A DNA stretch of 64,000 nt. It comes from an uncultured Clostridia bacterium (GTDB taxonomy: Bacteria > Bacillota > Clostridia > Oscillospirales > Ruminococcaceae). A program made the position numbers and the translations under genes. The stretch is from positions 1 through 64,000 of the forward strand of contig CANDVA010000008.1 of the NCBI GenBank assembly GCA_947389015.1, in the 5' to 3' direction. The notes under the pieces were generated by a model, which was not told the origin of the DNA, ran no database searches, and worked only from the letters and a program-made list of their open reading frames with translations. Of the stretch, positions 37,974 to 47,505 are shown piece by piece (position 1 is the stretch's first letter; each line of letters opens with the position of its first letter).

Positions 37974-38816
37974 TTGAAGAAGATTTTTGCCGCGCTGTTG
38001 GCGGTTATTGCGGCGGTTACGCTTACGGGCTGTTCGACCGCGCCGCCAAACGGTATGATGAGCTATGACTTCAAGTCGATGAGTATGGATTTCATTCAGC
38101 TCTCGCCGCCGAAGGACGGAGATAAGATCGCGGTTTTCGATACCGATTACGGCGAGATAAGAGTGGTGCTGTACGAGGAGTACGCGCCCGTAAAGGTGAA
38201 GTCGTTCATTGAAAAGGTGGACGAGGGCGTTTACGACGATATGGAGATAAAGGGCGTGCGCAATGACACCTATTTCCTTACGGGCGGCTTTGATAACAGC
38301 AAGGGACAGTATATAGGACGGCTGGATAATACCGAGCTTCTGGCAAATGAGTACACTCCCGAGCTGTGGCCGTTCAGGGGAGCGCTTATGGGCTTTTCGG
38401 AGCGTTCGGGATTCAGCGACGCGCGCTGGTTTATGTGCTGGGACGATAAGGAAAACCTTACGGTAGACGCGGTGAACGAGTTGAAAAGCAGCGCGTCGAC
38501 TATTGAGGACGACGAGCAGCGCAGCAAAATGCTCGCGTTGTTCGATAAGTTCTACGAGGTCGGAGGAGTGTTCGGAATGGCGGGAGAATGCACCATTTTC
38601 GGACAGACCTATCTCGGCTTTGACGTGGTGGAAAAGCTGACGCATATCCCTGCGGACGATCAGGGGCAGGCTACGACAGAGGTCAAGATAAAAAGCGTGA
38701 CGATCTCGCAGTTTAAGGACGGCGATAAAGTGGACGAGTTTCCGACAGCCCACCCCGAGGGACTTCCCGAGGAGAGCACGGCGGAGGAGAGTTCTTCCGG
38801 TACGCAGTCGGAATGA
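37974..38816 (+). CDS. Cyclophilin-like lipoprotein 1 (diverged)
   Basis: The 280-residue lipoprotein (TTG start; lipobox LTGC near residue 20) is most divergent of three tandem copies. DKIAVFDTDYGEIRVVLYEEYAPVKVKSFIEKV follows the cyclophilin start, but the usual HRVIxxFMxQGG active-site block is replaced by RNDTYFLTGGFDN. The C-terminal GECTIFGQTYLGFDVVEKL matches the end of the fold. It is probably not an active prolyl isomerase. It follows cysS by 4 bp, so it may share the T-box. Confidence 0.8.
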   Translation: MKKIFAALLAVIAAVTLTGCSTAPPNGMMSYDFKSMSMDFIQLSPPKDGDKIAVFDTDYGEIRVVLYEEYAPVKVKSFIEKVDEGVYDDMEIKGVRNDTYFLTGGFDNSKGQYIGRLDNTELLANEYTPELWPFRGALMGFSERSGFSDARWFMCWDDKENLTVDAVNELKSSASTIEDDEQRSKMLALFDKFYEVGGVFGMAGECTIFGQTYLGFDVVEKLTHIPADDQGQATTEVKIKSVTISQFKDGDKVDEFPTAHPEGLPEESTAEESSSGTQSE

Positions 38817-38833
38817 TCGCAAAGAGGTGAAAT

Positions 38834-39679
38834 ATGAAGAGAATATTTATGTGCGCCGTGCTTGCGGCGGGAATGCTGCTTACGGGGTGCAATGGCGGCT
38901 CGAACAGCGATAATTCGGGAAACTCGAGCAGTACGAGCTCTGCACCGAGCGCCGACCTTACGGATTTTGCGGGCAATACAGTTGAGGTATCCCCTAAAGA
39001 GGGTGATCTGATAGCGACGTTTGAGATCGAGGGCTACGGCTCGATAAAAGCGGTGCTGTTTCCCGAGGCGGCTCCCGTGGGCGTGGAGAATTTTCAGAAG
39101 CTCTGTGAGGCGGGATATTACAAGGGCTTGAAGATACACAGAGTGATAAAAGATTTTATGCTCCAGGGCGGCTCGCTGAACGGCGACGGAACGGGCGGCG
39201 ACGCGCTTGTGAACGGCGGTTCGTTCGGCATTGAGACCAACGATAATTTGCGGCACTTTTACGGCGCGCTCTGCTATGCGAACGCCGGGGGACAGAACTC
39301 CACGCAGTTTTATATCGTCAACAATAAGGATTACGACCCCGCGGAGGACATAAAAGCGATCGAGAAAAGCCTAGCCGAGGTGCGCGAGCTGCTGAAGAAG
39401 GCGGAGAGCGATTCACAAGCCGACGCCGTGGAGTACTACAAGTCGTATGAGGATGCGTTCGTCAAGCTCCTCGGTACATTGCCGAGCTATGAGGGAAGAG
39501 GCGGATATCCGAGCCTTGACGGCAGCTACACCGTTTTCGGACAAGTCTACGATGGCTTTGACGTTATCGACAGCATTTCCGCTGTCGAGGTCGAATTGGG
39601 CAGCGACGGCAATATGTCCAAGCCCGTGCAGGATATCATCATCTCAAATGTTTATGTTTCAAATTATGTGGAGGGTTAA
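38834..39679 (+). CDS. Cyclophilin-type peptidyl-prolyl isomerase lipoprotein 2
   Basis: The 281-residue lipoprotein (LLTGC lipobox) carries a recognisable cyclophilin active site: GLKIHRVIKDFMLQGGSLNGDGTGG, then GALCYANAGGQNSTQFYIV. After this comes an inserted helical segment of ~55 residues (EDIKAIEKSLAEVREL, ending near LPSYEGR) before YTVFGQVYDGFDVID. The insertion is shared with copy 3. It should act outside the membrane in folding of exported proteins. Confidence 0.88.
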   Translation: MKRIFMCAVLAAGMLLTGCNGGSNSDNSGNSSSTSSAPSADLTDFAGNTVEVSPKEGDLIATFEIEGYGSIKAVLFPEAAPVGVENFQKLCEAGYYKGLKIHRVIKDFMLQGGSLNGDGTGGDALVNGGSFGIETNDNLRHFYGALCYANAGGQNSTQFYIVNNKDYDPAEDIKAIEKSLAEVRELLKKAESDSQADAVEYYKSYEDAFVKLLGTLPSYEGRGGYPSLDGSYTVFGQVYDGFDVIDSISAVEVELGSDGNMSKPVQDIIISNVYVSNYVEG

Positions 39680-39681
39680 GT

Positions 39682-40536
39682 ATGAAAAGATTTGCGAAAA
39701 TTCTTTTAAGCGCGGCTCTTGCGGCAGGTTGTATGCTCGGACTTACCGGCTGTAACAAAGCGCCTGCGGGCAATATCTCCAATAGTATGACTTTCACCGA
39801 GGGCGATAAGATAGCCGAGATCACCTTTGAGGATTACGGCACTATAAAAGCAAAGCTGTACCCCGATATCGCTCCGAACGCTGTGGAAAATTTTATCAAG
39901 CTTGCGGAGAGCGGCTATTACAACGGGCTGAAAATACACCGCGTGGCTAAGGATATGTGCATACAGGGCGGTTCGCTGAACGGCGACGGAACAGGCGGCA
40001 CGGCGCTTATCGGTAATGAGGACTCGTTCGATATCGAGACCAACGCGGACATGCGCAACTTTTTCGGCGCGCTCGGCTACGCCAATCAGGACGGACAGAA
40101 CACAACGCAGTTCTACATAGTTACCGCGCAGACCAAATCCGATATCACGCAGTACGATCCCTCGGCTATACGCGAAAAGGCTGCGGAGTTCACTGCGAAG
40201 AAGGAGGAAATGGAGGATTCCGATCCTTCATATGCGGGCGTTGAGTATATGGAGACATATTATACCAATCTTGCCGATATGATCGAGAAGGCCTCCGAGG
40301 AGATAGTCGAGAAGTATAAGACCGTAGGCGGATATCCGCTTTGGGACGGCGGGTACACCGTTTTCGGGCAGGTTTTCGAGAACCTTGACGTACTGAACAA
40401 GATAGCGGCGGCAGAGGTCACTACCGATGTGAACGGCGAGAAGATCAGACCCGTGCAGGATATCATCATTAGCTCCGTGAAGATAGTGGAGTTTGTTATG
40501 CCCGAGGAGAACACGGGAGAGGCTCAATCCGAATAA
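39682..40536 (+). CDS. Cyclophilin-type peptidyl-prolyl isomerase lipoprotein 3
   Basis: The 284-residue lipoprotein (LTGC lipobox) has GLKIHRVAKDMCIQGGSLNGDGTGG and GALGYANQDGQNTTQFYIV, then a helical insertion (~60 residues; SAIREKAAEFTAKKEEME onward) and YTVFGQVFENLDVLN. It is 2 bp downstream of copy 2 and clearly a duplicate of it. All three copies form one transcription unit ended by a terminator near 40612. Confidence 0.88.
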   Translation: MKRFAKILLSAALAAGCMLGLTGCNKAPAGNISNSMTFTEGDKIAEITFEDYGTIKAKLYPDIAPNAVENFIKLAESGYYNGLKIHRVAKDMCIQGGSLNGDGTGGTALIGNEDSFDIETNADMRNFFGALGYANQDGQNTTQFYIVTAQTKSDITQYDPSAIREKAAEFTAKKEEMEDSDPSYAGVEYMETYYTNLADMIEKASEEIVEKYKTVGGYPLWDGGYTVFGQVFENLDVLNKIAAAEVTTDVNGEKIRPVQDIIISSVKIVEFVMPEENTGEAQSE

Positions 40537-40744: not shown

Positions 40745-40774
40745 CGTGAATGGTACTGTTTTGTACGTGAAATG
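40745..40774 (+). promoter_or_regulatory. LytTR-type direct-repeat operator (kinase operon)
   Basis: CGTGAATGG (40745-40753) and CGTGAAATG (40766-40774) are two copies of one half-site, 21 bp start to start. The reverse complement is CATTTCACG-N12-CCATTCACG, nearly identical to the element before the surface protein gene (43790). It ends 23 bp before the -35 of the kinase promoter. Confidence 0.7.
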
Positions 40775-40797: not shown

Positions 40798-40826
40798 TTG
40801 ACAATTCCCCCGAAAATCATTATAAT
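40798..40826 (+). promoter_or_regulatory. Promoter of the sensor kinase operon
   Basis: TTGACA (40798-40803) and TATAAT (40821-40826) are 17 bp apart. Confidence 0.88.
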
Positions 40827-40929
40827 CTAAAATGAGATGGTATTGTTTTAATGCATGCTGGGTTCGGGAACCGTGTGCCCTGCACGTTGGACATGGAAAC
40901 CGCGGCTCGTTTTGTTAAAGGAGATTTTG

Positions 40930-43002
40930 ATGTTGGATCGGGTGTCGTTTATTAGGTTTGTCGATTTGGGGGGAATTACGGAAACGATCATTTTTGTGTC
41001 GTATATTCTGGTTTGCGCGGGGTTGTTTAAAAGCAGGTTTTCGCGGTCGGCGACCGTATTCGCTTTAGGCGCGGCGGGAGCAGTTATAGCGGGAGCGAAT
41101 ATCGCGGTCATGCTGTCGGATACGCAGAACCTTGCTCTTATGCTGACGCTGTTTCCGCTGACGGCGTATCTTCCGTTTTCGGTGCTGCTTTACTTTTTAT
41201 CGGACGGCGGCGTTTTTGAGACCGCGGCGGTCTGCGTTGTCGGAACGCTTGAAGCGCTGATCTTGAAAGCGCTGCAAAAAATACTGACAAAGTTGATAGT
41301 TATGATAGTTGTGAACGCGGGAGCGTCGCACCCTGTGCCGAGCGTTGTGTGCGACGCGATCGTCGTACTTGCGGCGGCGGGGCTTGTGTTTGTCGCGTTC
41401 GGATTTATCGGCAAGCCGTTCCGTTTATGCGTTGCTGAGAGCCGACGGAGCCGAATGCTGCTTTTGGTGCCGATCGCTTTGGTATTTCTGATGATGTTCT
41501 ATTTCCTTAATAGCGCGACAAATATAACGGTTCTGCTTTTGACCATGCTGATCGCCGTTTCGATCTTTATCATTATTGCAAGGCTGCTCGGCGCGGCTGC
41601 GGAGATCATCCGAATGAAGCGCTCGGAGAAAGAAATGTCCGATCATATGGAGCTCCAGCGGTGCAGCTACGACAAGCTTGCCCGTAAAATGGAGGCGGGG
41701 CGCGCGTACCGCCACGATATGCGGCATCATCTCAGGATCATAGAGGGGCTTGCAAGGCAGGGCGACTGCGGCAGTATCATCGAATACACGGGCAAAATGA
41801 ACGGCTCGCTCGGAGAGCTTGAAAACGTCGACCGCTGTAAAAATCCCGAGATAAACGCGGTGCTTTCCGAATACATCGGCCGCGCCGAAAATTCGGGGTG
41901 CAAAATCACGGAAAGCTTTGCGTTCCCCGCGAAGCTGCCGTTCGCGGAGGACGACGTGTGCATCGTGCTGGCGAACGCCCTTGAAAACGCGATCAACGCC
42001 TGCGGCAAGCTCCCGCGGGAAGAGCGGTATATCAACATTTCCGCGGAGTGCGCCGATAATCGCAGGCTGTTCGTTTCGGTGAAAAATCCCTGCGCCGACG
42101 CGCTCGAATTTGACGAGAACGGACTGCCCGTTGTCGACGGGCGCTCGGAGGAGCACGGCGTCGGGTTGCGCTCCGTGAACAGTATCGCCGAAAAGTACAA
42201 CGGATTTTTGCGCTGCAGGCTCGAAAAAGGCGAGTTTGTGTTTCACGCGGCGCTGTTTTGCGAGGAGAGCGTTCCCGTGAAAAAGGGCGAAAAGCCGGGG
42301 AACAAGTCCAAGCGGGCTGTTTCCTCGCTGATGTGTCTCGGCTTGGGGGTTCTGCTTATGCTGAATATAATGCCCTCCGCGGCGGAAGCGGCTTCCTCGC
42401 TGCTCTCGGTGAATATCCGCACGATAAGGGATCTCTTTCTCGGCTGGGGCGACAACTCGATATCTATCGAAAAACCCGAATTTGAGGGAGACGGAGCGGA
42501 CGAGCTGAACAGCGCGGTGAAGAGCTACACCGATGAAGCGAAAGAAAAGTTTTGGTGGTACTTTAACCACAGGTATAACGGCTATGTTGCGGAGGATATG
42601 TACTATACCGTTATACGCGACGACGAGAAATATTTTATCGCGCAGTTCAAGGTTACCGTAAACGCGGGCAGTTCAATGGATTACGGGCGCTGGATCGTCT
42701 TTGATAAGAGCGCGGAAAAGGTGCTGGAGCTTGCCGATCTGTTCAAGGAGGGCAGCGATTACATCGGAGTATTAAGCGCCGAGATACTTAAACAGATGAA
42801 ATATAAAAACGAGTTCGAGGGCAGAGACTTTTTTGTCGACGGCGACGACGCTTTTACCGAAATAAGCGAAGACGCGGACTTCTACATCGACTCCCTTAAC
42901 AGGCTGGTTATCGTTTTCGACGAATACGAGGTCGCGCCCGGTCCTATGGGCAGTCCGCGGTTTTTCATTAACAGCGAAGTTATAGAAGATATTGTGAGGT
43001 GA
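40930..43002 (+). CDS. GHKL sensor histidine kinase fused to an RsiV/DUF3298-like extracytoplasmic domain
   Basis: The 690-residue protein starts at ATG 40930 after AAAGGAG. Residues ~10-220 hold six or so membrane helices. A DHp-like segment follows with YRHDMRHHLRII (His262), then a GHKL ATPase with ANALENAINAC (~348-357) and HGVGLRSVNS (~409-417). After the catalytic domain comes an extra membrane span (~463-487) and a C-terminal domain of ~175 residues. Its ADLFKEGSDY and LNRLVIVFDEYEVAPGPMGSPRFFI match the RsiV/PdaC DUF3298 fold, which in RsiV binds lysozyme. The C-terminus should therefore face outside. The LytTR regulator gene follows directly. Confidence 0.85.
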   Translation: MLDRVSFIRFVDLGGITETIIFVSYILVCAGLFKSRFSRSATVFALGAAGAVIAGANIAVMLSDTQNLALMLTLFPLTAYLPFSVLLYFLSDGGVFETAAVCVVGTLEALILKALQKILTKLIVMIVVNAGASHPVPSVVCDAIVVLAAAGLVFVAFGFIGKPFRLCVAESRRSRMLLLVPIALVFLMMFYFLNSATNITVLLLTMLIAVSIFIIIARLLGAAAEIIRMKRSEKEMSDHMELQRCSYDKLARKMEAGRAYRHDMRHHLRIIEGLARQGDCGSIIEYTGKMNGSLGELENVDRCKNPEINAVLSEYIGRAENSGCKITESFAFPAKLPFAEDDVCIVLANALENAINACGKLPREERYINISAECADNRRLFVSVKNPCADALEFDENGLPVVDGRSEEHGVGLRSVNSIAEKYNGFLRCRLEKGEFVFHAALFCEESVPVKKGEKPGNKSKRAVSSLMCLGLGVLLMLNIMPSAAEAASSLLSVNIRTIRDLFLGWGDNSISIEKPEFEGDGADELNSAVKSYTDEAKEKFWWYFNHRYNGYVAEDMYYTVIRDDEKYFIAQFKVTVNAGSSMDYGRWIVFDKSAEKVLELADLFKEGSDYIGVLSAEILKQMKYKNEFEGRDFFVDGDDAFTEISEDADFYIDSLNRLVIVFDEYEVAPGPMGSPRFFINSEVIEDIVR

Positions 43003-43007
43003 ACGGA

Positions 43008-43727
43008 TTGATAGAGATTGCGTTATGCGACGATAACGCCGAGGACGTCGAGGCGATCGGAGCCCTTGCCGCGGACTTTGCCGCGGAGCATTCGGAATTT
43101 CCGATACGGCTGAGCGCGTTCACCTCGGCGGCGGAGCTGCTTACGGCTGTTGAGGAAAGCAGCGGCTTTGATCTGTATATACTCGACGTTATGATGCCTG
43201 AAATGAACGGGATACGGCTTGCGGAGATAATACGCGGCAGGGGCGAGCAAGCGGAGATATTGTTTCTGACGATCTCGCGCGAGTACGCCGTGGAGGCTTT
43301 CGCGGTCCGCGCGTCGGGGTATCTGCTGAAGCCGGTGAGCAAGCCGAGCTTTGACGAGGAGGTGCTTCGCGCCGTTCGGAAGCTCACAAACGAGCAAAGC
43401 GCAGCGATCACCGTCAAAACCAAGGACGGAATGCGGAGGATACGGCTGCACGAGCTTGTGATGATCGAGAGCTTCAACCACACGCGGGCGCTCACCATGT
43501 CGGACGGCAGCGTGTTGGAGACCTCCGCCGCGCTCTCGGAGCTGTTTGAAGCCTTAAGCGGACACAAAAACTTCTATATGCCGCACCGCGCTTATATCGT
43601 AAATCTCGATTACTCGATGGGAATAAAGCGCTGCGAGCTGCTTATGCTCGGAAACCGCCGTATTCCGATACCGAGAAGGCAGTATACGATAATGCGGGAT
43701 CTTTTCTCGGATTACTTTTTTAAATAA
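43008..43727 (+). CDS. LytTR-family response regulator
   Basis: The 239-residue protein has a receiver domain (IALCDDNAED, phosphorylated Asp in YILDVMMPEMNG, KPVS) and a C-terminal LytTR DNA-binding domain (~135-235; IRLHELVMIESFNH, HRAYIVNLDYSMGI). TTG 43008 is preferred because GAGGTG precedes it and the family starts MxEIALCDD; the frame also opens at GTG 42999, overlapping the kinase stop. LytTR regulators bind direct repeats ~21 bp apart, as seen before both transcription units of this locus. Confidence 0.92.
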   Translation: MIEIALCDDNAEDVEAIGALAADFAAEHSEFPIRLSAFTSAAELLTAVEESSGFDLYILDVMMPEMNGIRLAEIIRGRGEQAEILFLTISREYAVEAFAVRASGYLLKPVSKPSFDEEVLRAVRKLTNEQSAAITVKTKDGMRRIRLHELVMIESFNHTRALTMSDGSVLETSAALSELFEALSGHKNFYMPHRAYIVNLDYSMGIKRCELLMLGNRRIPIPRRQYTIMRDLFSDYFFK

Positions 43728-43789: not shown

Positions 43790-43819
43790 CGTTTCACGTT
43801 GAAAAACAGACCATTCACG
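43790..43819 (+). promoter_or_regulatory. LytTR-type direct-repeat operator (surface protein gene)
   Basis: CGTTTCACG (43790-43798) and CCATTCACG (43811-43819) are half-sites 21 bp apart. The second ends 9 bp before the -35, a normal place for an activator. Near-identical elements lie at 40745 (inverted) and 47680. Confidence 0.72.
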
Positions 43820-43896: not shown

Positions 43897-46800
43897 ATGA
43901 AAAATCTTTTCACAAAGGAAATGCTGAAAAAGTCGGCGATCTTCAGAAAAGCCGTCGCGGTGACCTCCGCGCTGGCTATCGTTCTGGGAATTGTGCTGAA
44001 CAGCATTACGCCGTATAACGCAAACGCGGAGGAAACCGTTACCGGCGGCGCCTGCGGCGCGGAGGGCAATGAAAACAACGTTACATGGTCGCTTGACGGC
44101 GGCGTTTTTACGATAAGCGGAACGGGGGCAATGGCAGACTGGGTCAGCGGAGACGGGGGCATCGTAAACACGCCTTGGTATAAAGAAATACATAGTATTA
44201 AAGAAATTCAAATAAGCGGAGTTACAAATATAGGCAACAATGCTTTTTGTGGCTGCAATTATGTTGAATCAGTGAGCATAGATGAAAGCGTAACTTCAAT
44301 TGGTGCCGGTGCGTTTGACTCCTGCTCAGCGCTTGCCAAAATACAATTGCCGGAGAGCATTCTGGCTATTGGCAGCAACGCATTTGAACATTGTAACAAT
44401 CTTACAGAAATAAATATTCCCGATACTGTTGGTTCCATAGGAAACATGGCGTTTTACTACTGCTCTAAACTCGAATACGCACTTTATCCCGCCGCAGCGG
44501 CAATAAGATATTATGATGTGTTTGACAGCACGACGACCAAGCTCAAATACGAAACCGAAGGCGGTAAGCGCAAGATAACTGAAATCACTCTCGGCAACGG
44601 CAAAACAAGCGTCGCTATCACGGACGAAATGAACGTTGCTTCCGTCGCGGAAAGCGCGCGGAGCAAGGTTTCGCAGGAGGGGCACACCCATGCCGAGGAT
44701 AACGGCGTTTGCCGGATATGCGGCAAGACGGCGCAGCCCGCTGCCGATGTTGCCATAGACGAAACAAACTTCCCCGACGAGAATTTCAGAAATTACGTTA
44801 GTGAAAACTGTGATACTAATAAAGACGGTACTTTACAGAGCGATGAAATAGAAGCAGTTAAAAATATCAACGTTTTCAATAAAGGAATAGACGACCTGAC
44901 GGGAATAGAGCATTTCACCGAGCTGACAACACTTTTATGCAATAATAATCGTCTCACCGCTTTAGATATTAGCAAAAACACAAAGCTGACAACGCTTAAA
45001 TGCGAGTATAATGCTCTCACCGCTTTAGATATTAGCAAAAACACAAAGCTGACAATGCTTCGATGCGAGCATAACGCTCTCACCGCTTTAGATGTAAGCC
45101 AAAATACCGCGTTGACATTTCTTACCTGCGGTCAAAATTCTCTCAACACTTTAAATGTAAGTAAAAATACTGCGCTGGAACATCTTGAGTGCTATGAAAA
45201 TGCTCTCACCGCTTTAAATGTACGCCAAAATACCGTGTTGACATTTCTTTCCTGCGATGGTAATTTTCTCAATGCTTTAGACATAAGCCTAAATACCGAA
45301 CTGACACAGCTTTACTGCTATCAAAATAATCTCGCCGCTTTAGACGTAAGCCAAAACACAAAGCTGGAATTTCTTAAGTGCGATAATAATAATCTCACCT
45401 CCTTGGATTTAAGCAAAATCACCTGCTTGAAACATACTTCTTTTGAAAACAACAAATATACCGTTTCCCGCTGTATGATCGCCGCCGACGACCTCCCCGG
45501 ATACTTTGATTTAACAAAGGCAAGCAACTGGGAAAACGCCAAAGTGACCGGCGATAATATTTACGGAACAGGCACCGCAACATATACATACGACTGCGGA
45601 AATGGGATAAAGCCAACGTTCTCTATTGAATTCGGCGAGCACAGCTATGAAAACGGCACGTGTACGGTCTGCGGTGAAGAGGAACCGAAACCGTCATACA
45701 ACTTAACTCCCTCTGCAAAAGAGATAACAATAGGCGATTACCAGATATTTACTCTTGAGGGTTATGACGGCCAAGAGCTACCCACATGGGAAATTGATGA
45801 AACTTATGTGGATATAATCACAACCGGAGTAGATGTAGATAACAACCAGTGCAAATTGATCGGTAAAGCGGCGACCGACCCTACGACCACGCTTACGGTT
45901 AAATTAAACGGCAAAATAGCAGGCACGGCAGTGATAACTGTTGTTGCCGCCGAATGTGAACATGAATGGGGTACAAAGTGGGAAAAAGATGATGATTATC
46001 ACTGGCACGTCTGCACAAAGTGCGGCGCGGCAAGCACAAAAGAAAAACATCGTGTGGGACCCAACGACGTTGGGAAGGAACCGACCTGCACGGAAAACGG
46101 CAAGGGTACCGGTTACAAATGCCTCGACAACTGCGGCTATATGGAAGAGGGCAGCGTTAAGCCCGCCTTGGGACACGACTATAAGGATGTACCGGGCAGC
46201 GGAAAAGAGCCTACCTGCGTCGAAGCGGGCAAGGAGCCCGATCAGAAGTGTTCAAGATGCGGCGACCTAACGGAGGGTGAAACCCTCCCCGCAACCGGAA
46301 CGCATACTCCCGGCGAACCCGTGCATGAAAACATATCCGGCGCGACCTGCACAACGGCGGGCTCTTACGACGAGGTCGAATACTGCACGGAATGCGGCGC
46401 GGAGATAAGCAGAACGCCCAAAACGGGCGAAAAGCTCCCTCACGATATGAAAGAGGTTCCCGGCAGCGCAAAGGCTGCCACCTGCGCGGAGGCAGGCAAG
46501 GAAGCCGACCAAAAGTGCGAAAACTGCGGCTATACCGAAACGGGAGCGGTTATCCCCGCAACGGGAGAACACCATTTTGAAAACGGGGTATGCTCGGTCT
46601 GCGGAGCGGCGGAAACCACAAGCAAACCCGATGACACAAGCAAACCCGACGACACGAGCAAGCACGACGACACGAGCAAGCCCGACGACACGAGCAACCC
46701 CGACGACACGAGCAACCCCGACGACACGAGCAACCCCGGCAACGTCGGAAATATTTCCAAGGATACGCAGAGTGGAGACAACGTTCCGAACGCAGAGATT

Positions 46801-47505
46801 GTCACTTCCACAGAAGCTCTTGCCGAAGCGGTGCTTACTACCGAAGAGCGCGAATCCGTAAAGAACGGCGAGGATATCAGGATCGTGCTTAAGCTGGAGG
46901 ACGGCACAACGATCGTTTCCGATAAGGACAAGGCGGCTGTTGAAGCGGCTCTGAACGGCTCGGAGAACCTGAAGCTCGGACAGTATCTTGAAATAAATCT
47001 GTACAAGATCGCGGGAGGAGTTGAAACAGGAATTACACGGCTCAACAAACCCATTACGATCACGATAGACGTTCCCGAAGCGCTCCGCGGCAGCGGCAGG
47101 GAGTTTGTGCTGATACGCGTTCACGACGGCGCGGCAGACGTGCTTTCGGATCTGGACAGCGATCCCGACACGGTGACGGTGCAGACCGACAAATTCTCGA
47201 CCTACGCGCTGGCTTACAGAGAAAACGTTTCGGTGAACGCGCCCGACGAAAACCCGAGCACAGGTGTAGCTCCGACGGGAACGTATCTTATAGTGACCGG
47301 TTCCGTTATGCTGCTTATAATTCTGTTTTTGACGCTGTTCACAGGCAGAAACGGAATGTCCGAGGAAAGTAAGGAGCGCGTATTTACAAGCCTTATCGCC
47401 TGGGGCAAGAGAGGCGGAAGAATTCGCGCGGCGATCGCACTCGCAGCGATATTCCTTCTGCTCAGCTTCTATTACGGAATCGGCATGAAGACCGCTGAAA
47501 AGTAA
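43897..47505 (+). CDS. Large leucine-rich-repeat cell-surface protein
   Basis: The 1202-residue protein starts after GGAGG with a long signal peptide (~1-45, ending NANA). A BspA-type LRR region (~60-210; IGNNAFCGCNYVESVSI) comes first. Then nine internalin-like 21-residue repeats (~345-515; LTALDISKNTKLTTLKC), a bacterial Ig-like segment (~610-690), several Cys-pair modules of the form CxxCG (~690-905), a KPDDTS repeat linker and an adhesin-like domain. NPSTG and two hydrophobic segments finish it (GTYLIVTGSVMLLIILFLTLF, then a last span). It should be anchored by the C-terminal spans. The central LRR part is AT-richer than neighbours. Confidence 0.85.
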   Translation: MKNLFTKEMLKKSAIFRKAVAVTSALAIVLGIVLNSITPYNANAEETVTGGACGAEGNENNVTWSLDGGVFTISGTGAMADWVSGDGGIVNTPWYKEIHSIKEIQISGVTNIGNNAFCGCNYVESVSIDESVTSIGAGAFDSCSALAKIQLPESILAIGSNAFEHCNNLTEINIPDTVGSIGNMAFYYCSKLEYALYPAAAAIRYYDVFDSTTTKLKYETEGGKRKITEITLGNGKTSVAITDEMNVASVAESARSKVSQEGHTHAEDNGVCRICGKTAQPAADVAIDETNFPDENFRNYVSENCDTNKDGTLQSDEIEAVKNINVFNKGIDDLTGIEHFTELTTLLCNNNRLTALDISKNTKLTTLKCEYNALTALDISKNTKLTMLRCEHNALTALDVSQNTALTFLTCGQNSLNTLNVSKNTALEHLECYENALTALNVRQNTVLTFLSCDGNFLNALDISLNTELTQLYCYQNNLAALDVSQNTKLEFLKCDNNNLTSLDLSKITCLKHTSFENNKYTVSRCMIAADDLPGYFDLTKASNWENAKVTGDNIYGTGTATYTYDCGNGIKPTFSIEFGEHSYENGTCTVCGEEEPKPSYNLTPSAKEITIGDYQIFTLEGYDGQELPTWEIDETYVDIITTGVDVDNNQCKLIGKAATDPTTTLTVKLNGKIAGTAVITVVAAECEHEWGTKWEKDDDYHWHVCTKCGAASTKEKHRVGPNDVGKEPTCTENGKGTGYKCLDNCGYMEEGSVKPALGHDYKDVPGSGKEPTCVEAGKEPDQKCSRCGDLTEGETLPATGTHTPGEPVHENISGATCTTAGSYDEVEYCTECGAEISRTPKTGEKLPHDMKEVPGSAKAATCAEAGKEADQKCENCGYTETGAVIPATGEHHFENGVCSVCGAAETTSKPDDTSKPDDTSKHDDTSKPDDTSNPDDTSNPDDTSNPGNVGNISKDTQSGDNVPNAEIVTSTEALAEAVLTTEERESVKNGEDIRIVLKLEDGTTIVSDKDKAAVEAALNGSENLKLGQYLEINLYKIAGGVETGITRLNKPITITIDVPEALRGSGREFVLIRVHDGAADVLSDLDSDPDTVTVQTDKFSTYALAYRENVSVNAPDENPSTGVAPTGTYLIVTGSVMLLIILFLTLFTGRNGMSEESKERVFTSLIAWGKRGGRIRAAIALAAIFLLLSFYYGIGMKTAEK
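44920..45430 (+). repeat. 63-bp tandem LRR-coding repeats
   Basis: About eight units of 63 bp encode the 21-residue leucine-rich repeats of the surface protein. Successive starts of CTGACAA fall 63 bp apart (for example 44923 and 44986). Several units share long identical stretches, which marks recent duplication. Confidence 0.85.
46624..46735 (+). repeat. 18-bp tandem repeats encoding a KPDDTS linker
   Basis: Seven units of 18 bp encode DDTSKP/DDTSNP. The later copies are nearly identical at the DNA level. Such stretches act as flexible wall-spanning linkers and change length easily by slippage. Confidence 0.85.

Follow-up and report, generated by a model that had tools for sequence, protein, structure and literature searches.

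The window analyzed here, a 64,000-nucleotide stretch of DNA from an uncultured Clostridia bacterium, contains a compact locus in which a gene for a sensor histidine kinase is followed by genes for a LytTR-type response regulator and a large surface protein (Table 1). The kinase gene reads as one frame of 690 codons with no internal stop; the longest open reading frame starts at 40855, and an AAAGGAG ribosome site recognized by eye precedes the ATG at 40930. In this single frame the kinase carries an RsiV-type domain at its C-terminus, which confirms the central observation of the original prediction. The regulator gene overlaps the kinase gene by four bases and codes for a protein with Response_reg and LytTR domains (Pfam, 5.5e-16 and 2.8e-8), in keeping with the two-component setting that had been anticipated. 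Directly upstream, at 37974-40533, lie three tandem genes for cyclophilin-type isomerases, with PF00160 in all three.

Table 1. Features of the kinase locus and of related loci. Residue numbers refer to the kinase; coordinates preceded by an L-number are those of other loci.
Feature	Coordinates	Strand	Basis
Putative regulator operator, TTCACG-N15-TTCACG with A-rich spacer	40745..40771	-	
Promoter-like TTGACA-17-TATAAT, 12 of 12 bases, 26 bases downstream of the putative operator	40798..40826	+	
Fused sensor kinase, 690 aa	40930..43002	+	ORF, Pfam, NCBIfam and PDB chain matches
N-terminal membrane domain, residues ~15-217	40972..41580	+	Hydropathy only
His-box RHDMRHH (H262) and GHKL ATPase domain	41632..42264	+	HATPase_c_5 at residues 341-439
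Additional membrane span past the ATPase, residues ~463-481	42316..42372	+	Hydropathy, charge count
RsiV-like switch region: A485-x-A487 signal-peptidase-type box and short following stretch	42373..42438	+	
RsiV-type sensor, predicted extracellular	42439..42999	+	DUF3298 at 42733-42972
LytTR response regulator, 4-base overlap with the kinase gene	42999..43727	+	Pfam
Second putative operator copy, between regulator and surface-protein genes	43793..43819	+	
Putative target: 1202-aa BspA-type leucine-rich-repeat surface protein	43897..47505	+	LRR_5, LRR_4
TCACTTAAT[TC]GAC repeats, a different possible operator	L003:3926-3978; L085:5025-5057		
Signal peptidase I genes	L098:4653-5834; L104:9426-10694		TIGR02228 above cut-off

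The catalytic core is marked by a HATPase_c_5 match above the Pfam cut-off (4.5e-16), and five residues that we take to represent the His (H262), N (N349, N353) and G (G410, G412) boxes are invariant across 44 aligned kinase rows. The N-terminal spans, whose number is approximate as it comes from hydropathy alone, amount to four to seven in most full-length members and to five in the consensus. Past the ATPase, a further membrane span separates it from the sensor, whose DUF3298 match occupies residues 602-681. Across 53 fusions, the 15 residues before this last span hold on average 4.2 lysines and arginines as against 0.6 in the 15 after it, and the count is higher before than after in 52 of the 53; because this excess of positive charge precedes the last span, we predict the sensor to be extracellular. 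The architecture originally described, namely membrane and GHKL catalytic parts, then an extra span and a sensor placed after the ATPase, is thus borne out, and the proposed location of that sensor outside the cell agrees with these charge counts. Between ATPase and sensor, 15 of the longer members have 149-256 residues, counting the span, and this stretch appears by eye to be rich in S, T, P and E, a composition to be expected of an extracellular segment.

The DUF3298 match of the C-terminal domain (7.6e-15; 56.1 bits against a cut-off of 24.1) upholds its earlier assignment to the DUF3298/RsiV fold and removes the concern that a profile search might find no such similarity. The NCBIfam RsiV profile matches residues 454-688 (2.2e-37, 129 bits) from its position 30 to 279 of 286, membrane span and linker included, with the equivalog cut-off of 250 bits not reached. 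The closest solved chain is the RsiV of the lysozyme complex (5jen; residues 507-688, 2.5e-16), and the next structure is 3cyg (8.1e-5).

A second copy of the kinase, 42% identical, is present in the same genome behind a response regulator gene of its own. In 43 genomes of the genus, DUF3298 was detected in 12, and every one of its 14 occurrences lies in a kinase frame; 13 of these frames are 680-723 aa long and one is cut by a contig end. Loci of relatives were then collected with the peptides RHDMRHHL and VFDEY[ET]VA, and the best 80 of 360 relatives correspond to 75 distinct loci from named genomes, of which 51 combine kinase and sensor and 24 lack the sensor, so that the domain order, for which a search in other genomes had been suggested, proves widespread. 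Among these sensorless loci, three (L118, L121, L128) stop at a contig end and two (L111, L124) look frame-broken by eye. Most records bear the label Oscillospiraceae, Lachnospiraceae or unclassified Clostridia, and metagenome assemblies prevail among them. Of two wider samples, one at the level of the family had DUF3298 in 51 of 396 genomes and one at the level of the class had an RsiV match in 138 of 391. They add no new case, because the three fused kinases among the long frames fetched from them are letter-identical to L100, L080 and L098; the four long DUF3298 frames checked (G807, G301, G307, G209) gave no kinase match. Outside the 51 stand L192, L195 and L196 (letter for letter L098, L100 and L080), the partial frames L145 and L146 (of L100 and L080), and the many members of L046-L056 that repeat loci of the peptide scan. 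A stand-alone DUF3298 protein with PdaC and DUF4179 matches below the cut-offs is encoded at L106:12826-13755, at a distance of about 5 kb from a fused kinase whose frame is broken.

In the published model for RsiV (PMC6066255), the cut site is kept covered by an amphipathic helix as long as no lysozyme is bound. We built a profile of the corresponding 49 residues (membrane span, cut site and amphipathic region, with no residue of the sensor) from 30 RsiV-type proteins and ran it on 85 frames, i.e. the window protein, 53 fused frames (the 51 loci, two of them represented twice) and 31 sensorless ones. Among the best 80 of 360 relatives, 18 of the 51 fused loci scored 17-37 bits with this switch profile and three more scored 7-11 bits, while the highest score among 1785 controls, shuffled or reversed, was 3.9 bits. 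It also scored 20-39 bits on eight of the 31 sensorless frames, namely L103 and seven kinases (L107, L108, L110, L112, L113, L114, L117). The NCBIfam RsiV model independently matches sensorless L107 at residues 446-484 (profile positions 45-83, E 2.1e-4). The majority of the seven stop within a few residues of the helix, L114 and L117 running about 10 and about 45 residues further, and no sensor remnant was found behind ten sensorless kinases searched (best E 1.4). The records of the seven are labelled Oscillibacter, Oscillospiraceae or uncultured Firmicutes. The idea of a fusion involving only the sensor is accordingly to be widened: in many relatives the sensor appears to have brought with it the membrane span and switch of RsiV, which are recognizable in the 18 of 51 loci. 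In the window protein A485-x-A487 is kept and the helix region is shortened; the profile missed this switch, and the miss is a point against regarding the window copy as fully equivalent to the RsiV switch. In its 13 nearest relatives, identity to the window protein is 77% in the switch, 72% in the sensor and 63% in the kinase core; in 30 more distant aligned rows the respective values are 22%, 44% and 46%. As for L103, the RsiV-like tail of the kinase (L103:5863-7788) by eye enters a CstA-like membrane stretch, for which Pfam made no CstA call, and this protein is perhaps a deletion fusion.

To trace the sensor we compared 52 fused sensors with 31 RsiV-type and 22 other DUF3298 proteins in a tree, from which L077, with 98 residues, was dropped. 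All fused sensors fall on one side of a single branch (100/99), and the nearest stand-alone protein, joined to them at 99/83, is L149, an RsiV-like protein (193.7 bits against the 250-bit cut-off) encoded directly behind a gene for an ECF-type sigma factor with Sigma70_r2/r4 domains. Given this single clade and the position of L149, we propose that the sensor most likely left a sigma/anti-sigma pair in a single capture event and now reports to a kinase. In the kinase tree, the switch-keeping sensorless kinases, together with others lacking the switch, group with five fused kinases in a clade of 22 rows (100/92), which joins most of the remaining fused kinases (99/92); the forks that lead to two small fused groups are poorly resolved, and L103 was assigned by hand to the fused group. 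As the sensorless kinases are nested among fused ones, they have probably lost the sensor secondarily, at times retaining the switch.

The regulator is a regular partner of the fusion, a LytTR-type gene lying on the same strand within 400 bases in 37 of the 51 loci with the fusion that stem from the best 80 of 360 relatives. The repeat TTCACG-N15-TTCACG was first spotted by eye in the window. A loose scan of the genome gave seven sites as against one for the backward control, and allowing up to two mismatches gave nine as against three, with the two copies at this locus being the only ones without a mismatch. In the window and the 75 loci, 40 matches with at most two mismatches fall in 24 of 76 sources, as against three for the control. 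In the 51 fused loci, 23 copies lie near kinase or regulator ends (0.275 per kb) and five elsewhere (0.009 per kb), a 30-fold difference for which the borders between near and elsewhere were set after the matches had been seen. Among the best 80 of 360 relatives, the repeat occurs near the kinase in 18 of 51 fused loci, leaving 33 with none there, and in none of the 24 sensorless ones. We infer that it is the operator bound by the LytTR regulator. Relatives of the second copy lack the TTCACG repeat; the sole exception, in L076, has one mismatch and lies at a distance from the kinase. The second copy goes with a different repeat, which, like the 33 fused loci with no TTCACG repeat near the kinase, speaks against the scheme proposed below: in L003 and L085 a regulator gene of the second-copy type is preceded by three and two copies, respectively, of TCACTTAAT[TC]GAC in 20-base steps, and no such copies were seen by eye in the upstream stretches of L070, L071, L073 and L076.

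We then considered the genes that follow the repeat. As in the window, an LRR_5 protein lies behind it in L062; elsewhere there is a GLUG protein (L091), a CstA protein (L100) and, going by labels assigned by eye, repeat-rich secreted-looking proteins (L057, L059), lipoprotein-like proteins (L075, L106) and a chemoreceptor (L061). In L098 and L104 the repeat is followed by a gene for signal peptidase I and then by genes for DUF6273 proteins. Signal peptidase being the enzyme that cuts RsiV, its presence there deserves attention. Other repeat sites, e.g. those of L064, L065 and L093, have no clear surface gene behind them. With no clean repeat in front, an LRR_5 protein (L068) and a Flg_new protein (L094) adjoin the kinase-regulator pair, an MBG_3/LRR_4 protein stands beside it on the other strand (L099), and further down in L097 there is a collagen-binding match just under the cut-off. 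Clusters of neighbouring genes, named by eye, include ABC transporters, chemoreceptors and other kinases; five loci have a lipoprotein-like family among these neighbours, and four have surface proteins.

Based on the domain order and its conservation, the single sensor clade, the pairing with a regulator, the repeat and the type of neighbouring gene, all read from the sequences themselves, we consider it probable that these loci encode a two-component system whose GHKL kinase carries an RsiV-type receptor on its C-terminus, by way of which a LytTR regulator and a change in surface proteins are driven. As to the ligand, the cleavage and the sign of the response, we infer the following course. 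The kinase core would be cytoplasmic, with a membrane tether on either side. A protein from outside the cell, be it lysozyme, another wall-active enzyme or something else, would bind the saddle of the C-terminal domain and, as in RsiV, draw the switch that follows the span away from the membrane. This could let signal peptidase act on the AxA box, possibly followed by a site-2 protease, and the release or movement of the C-terminal tether would alter kinase activity. The LytTR regulator would thereupon bind TTCACG-N15-TTCACG, inducing the kinase operon and the neighbouring gene for the large surface protein. In its strongest form, which we advance tentatively and hold to be somewhat more apt to fail than to stand, an extracellular protein, such as lysozyme of the host or the wall enzyme of a rival, would expose a cryptic cut at the C-terminus, and the general secretory signal peptidase would switch the kinase irreversibly through loss of the ATPase tether, with surface adhesins as output and, in some lineages, a dedicated signal peptidase feeding back on the cut. 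Such cutting calls for M50 and signal peptidase I enzymes, of which the genome has three matches and one respectively, but nearly all bacteria carry them (14/14 and 12/14 control genomes).

The alternative that comes closest to an even chance is that the ligand is sensed with no cut at all, movement of the last membrane span repositioning the ATPase as a reversible conformational switch. A kinase, unlike an anti-sigma factor, can signal without being destroyed, and the window-type switch, missed by the profile, has no IPVLG turn. Of 53 fusions, 49 have a box of the form [AVSGTLI]xA after the span, which favours a cut even though the pattern is loose; the other four have none, which does not. 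The stricter PxxAxA occurs in 32 of the 53, as against 1.6% of shuffles and eight of 30 RsiV-type proteins. A reversible switch further has to contend with the invariance of A485 and A487 in 12 aligned members of the genus and with the two lineages in which the repeat precedes a gene for signal peptidase I.

The nature of the ligand was approached through the RsiV-lysozyme contacts tabulated in PMC5014341. When the C-terminal domain is compared with RsiV, as had been proposed, only seven of 16 lysozyme contacts are identical in the window protein. There the equivalents of S169 and P259 are kept, and P occupies the position of Y261, one of three residues that the co-crystal paper ties to binding (PMC5014341). 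Over 52 fusions a mean of 5.0 of the 16 contacts are kept, as against 8.3 over 30 RsiV-type proteins. In the fusions H139 is changed to Y (50 of 53), T165 to N (52), A167 to G (53), S168 to G (49) and D225 to G (51), and the position of Y261 is Y in one of 53. Conservation over RsiV 252-258 is inflated because loci were found with the peptide VFDEY[ET]VA; with 251-258 left out, contact columns are still better conserved than other columns in the fusions (p = 0.002) but not in the RsiV-type set (p = 0.26), and the same saddle is seen in 19 fusions devoid of that search peptide. The saddle thus appears to be under strong constraint, yet is unlike that of RsiV, which suggests that its partner may be different or modified. 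That lysozyme itself is the ligand, as for B. subtilis RsiV, is accordingly possible and on balance doubtful: S169, which according to table 2 of PMC5014341 contacts the active-site residue D52 of lysozyme, is kept in all 53 fusions, as are G260 in 52, Y255 in 49 (a count inflated by its position within a search peptide) and P259 in 47, but H139, T165, S168, D225 and Y261 are changed across the family. The same source reports that Rv1980c, a DUF4163/DUF3298 protein, did not bind lysozyme. Sensing of lysozyme by this system, as first put forward, is therefore unsupported as stated, and lysozyme is better described as a possible, unproven ligand.

That RsiV inhibits lysozyme in vitro (PMC5014341) might point to a C-terminal domain shed as a protective decoy or inhibitor with no input to the kinase. 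We regard this as very improbable, as a decoy needs neither a kinase nor a conserved switch, and the seven sensorless kinases that keep the switch alone suggest that it has a role in the kinase itself.

The fusion is, moreover, found in intact frames. Among the best 80 of 360 relatives, 44 of the 51 fused loci have one intact frame, including two strain records, Faecalicatena orotica NLAE-zl-C242 (L099) and bacterium 1XD42-1 (L080), and seven are contig-cut or frame-broken (L077, L083, L087, L092, L096, L101, L106); alignment A3 leaves out L096 for its frame break, L068 for ambiguous bases and the other broken or cut loci. An assembly chimera or a frameshift joining two genes, the error to which the original prediction had acknowledged itself exposed, has only the prevalence of metagenome assemblies and those seven loci in its favour and carries next to no probability, given the second copy in the genome, the full-length frames in 13 of 14 cases in the genus and the recurrence of intact fusions across genomes.

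We next compared the fused kinase with known systems. RsiV is, to our knowledge, the best-understood bacterial lysozyme receptor, and acts through destruction of an anti-sigma factor. The RsiV proteins of B. subtilis, C. difficile and E. faecalis have in common with the fused kinase the sensor family and the preceding span with its AxA box, in addition to the switch where the profile recognizes it, which among the best 80 of 360 relatives is the case for 18 of the 51 fusions. The fused protein differs in its changed saddle, in its score of 129 bits against the 250-bit equivalog cut-off, and in its cytoplasmic output, where a GHKL kinase paired with LytTR takes the place of a sigma-binding segment: both the ECF sigma partner of the RsiV type and the sigma-binding N-terminus are absent at the locus, the kinase standing in their stead with the LytTR gene next to it. 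With AgrC-like GHKL kinases of the HATPase_c_5 family it shares the membrane N-terminus, the His box, the ATPase family and the LytTR partner, although the NCBIfam AgrC match to L099 is weak (26.5 bits against a cut-off of 500). Those kinases, so far as is known, terminate at the ATPase, whereas the fused kinase adds a membrane span and an extracellular domain beyond it. BlaR1 and MecR1, as described in PMC7593790, are membrane proteins that similarly combine a C-terminal extracellular sensor with a cytoplasmic effector; their zinc metalloprotease and class-D-beta-lactamase-like sensor are not found in the fused kinase, and a Pfam search of the window protein at E up to 1 gave no match to the metalloprotease domain. 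PMC7593790 also presents VgrS as a histidine kinase controlled by proteolysis through the protease Prc. That cut, made by a PDZ protease near the N-terminus, inhibits VgrS, which is not known to be related to the RsiV-type sensor. In a literature search that was thin on subscription journals we found no published description of a kinase with this domain order, as the original prediction had also held.

Going by the titles of the records, the bacteria with the fusion appear to come largely from animal guts. With an RsiV module on a kinase, an enzyme of the host or of a rival would be sensed through a circuit apart from that of RsiV, with surface proteins as the output, and this may let these relatives of gut Clostridia alter their surface proteins on meeting a foreign enzyme. 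It also raises the question of whether a kinase can be run from a C-terminal extracellular domain, perhaps via signal peptidase, a question that the compact locus with its readable probable operator makes testable.
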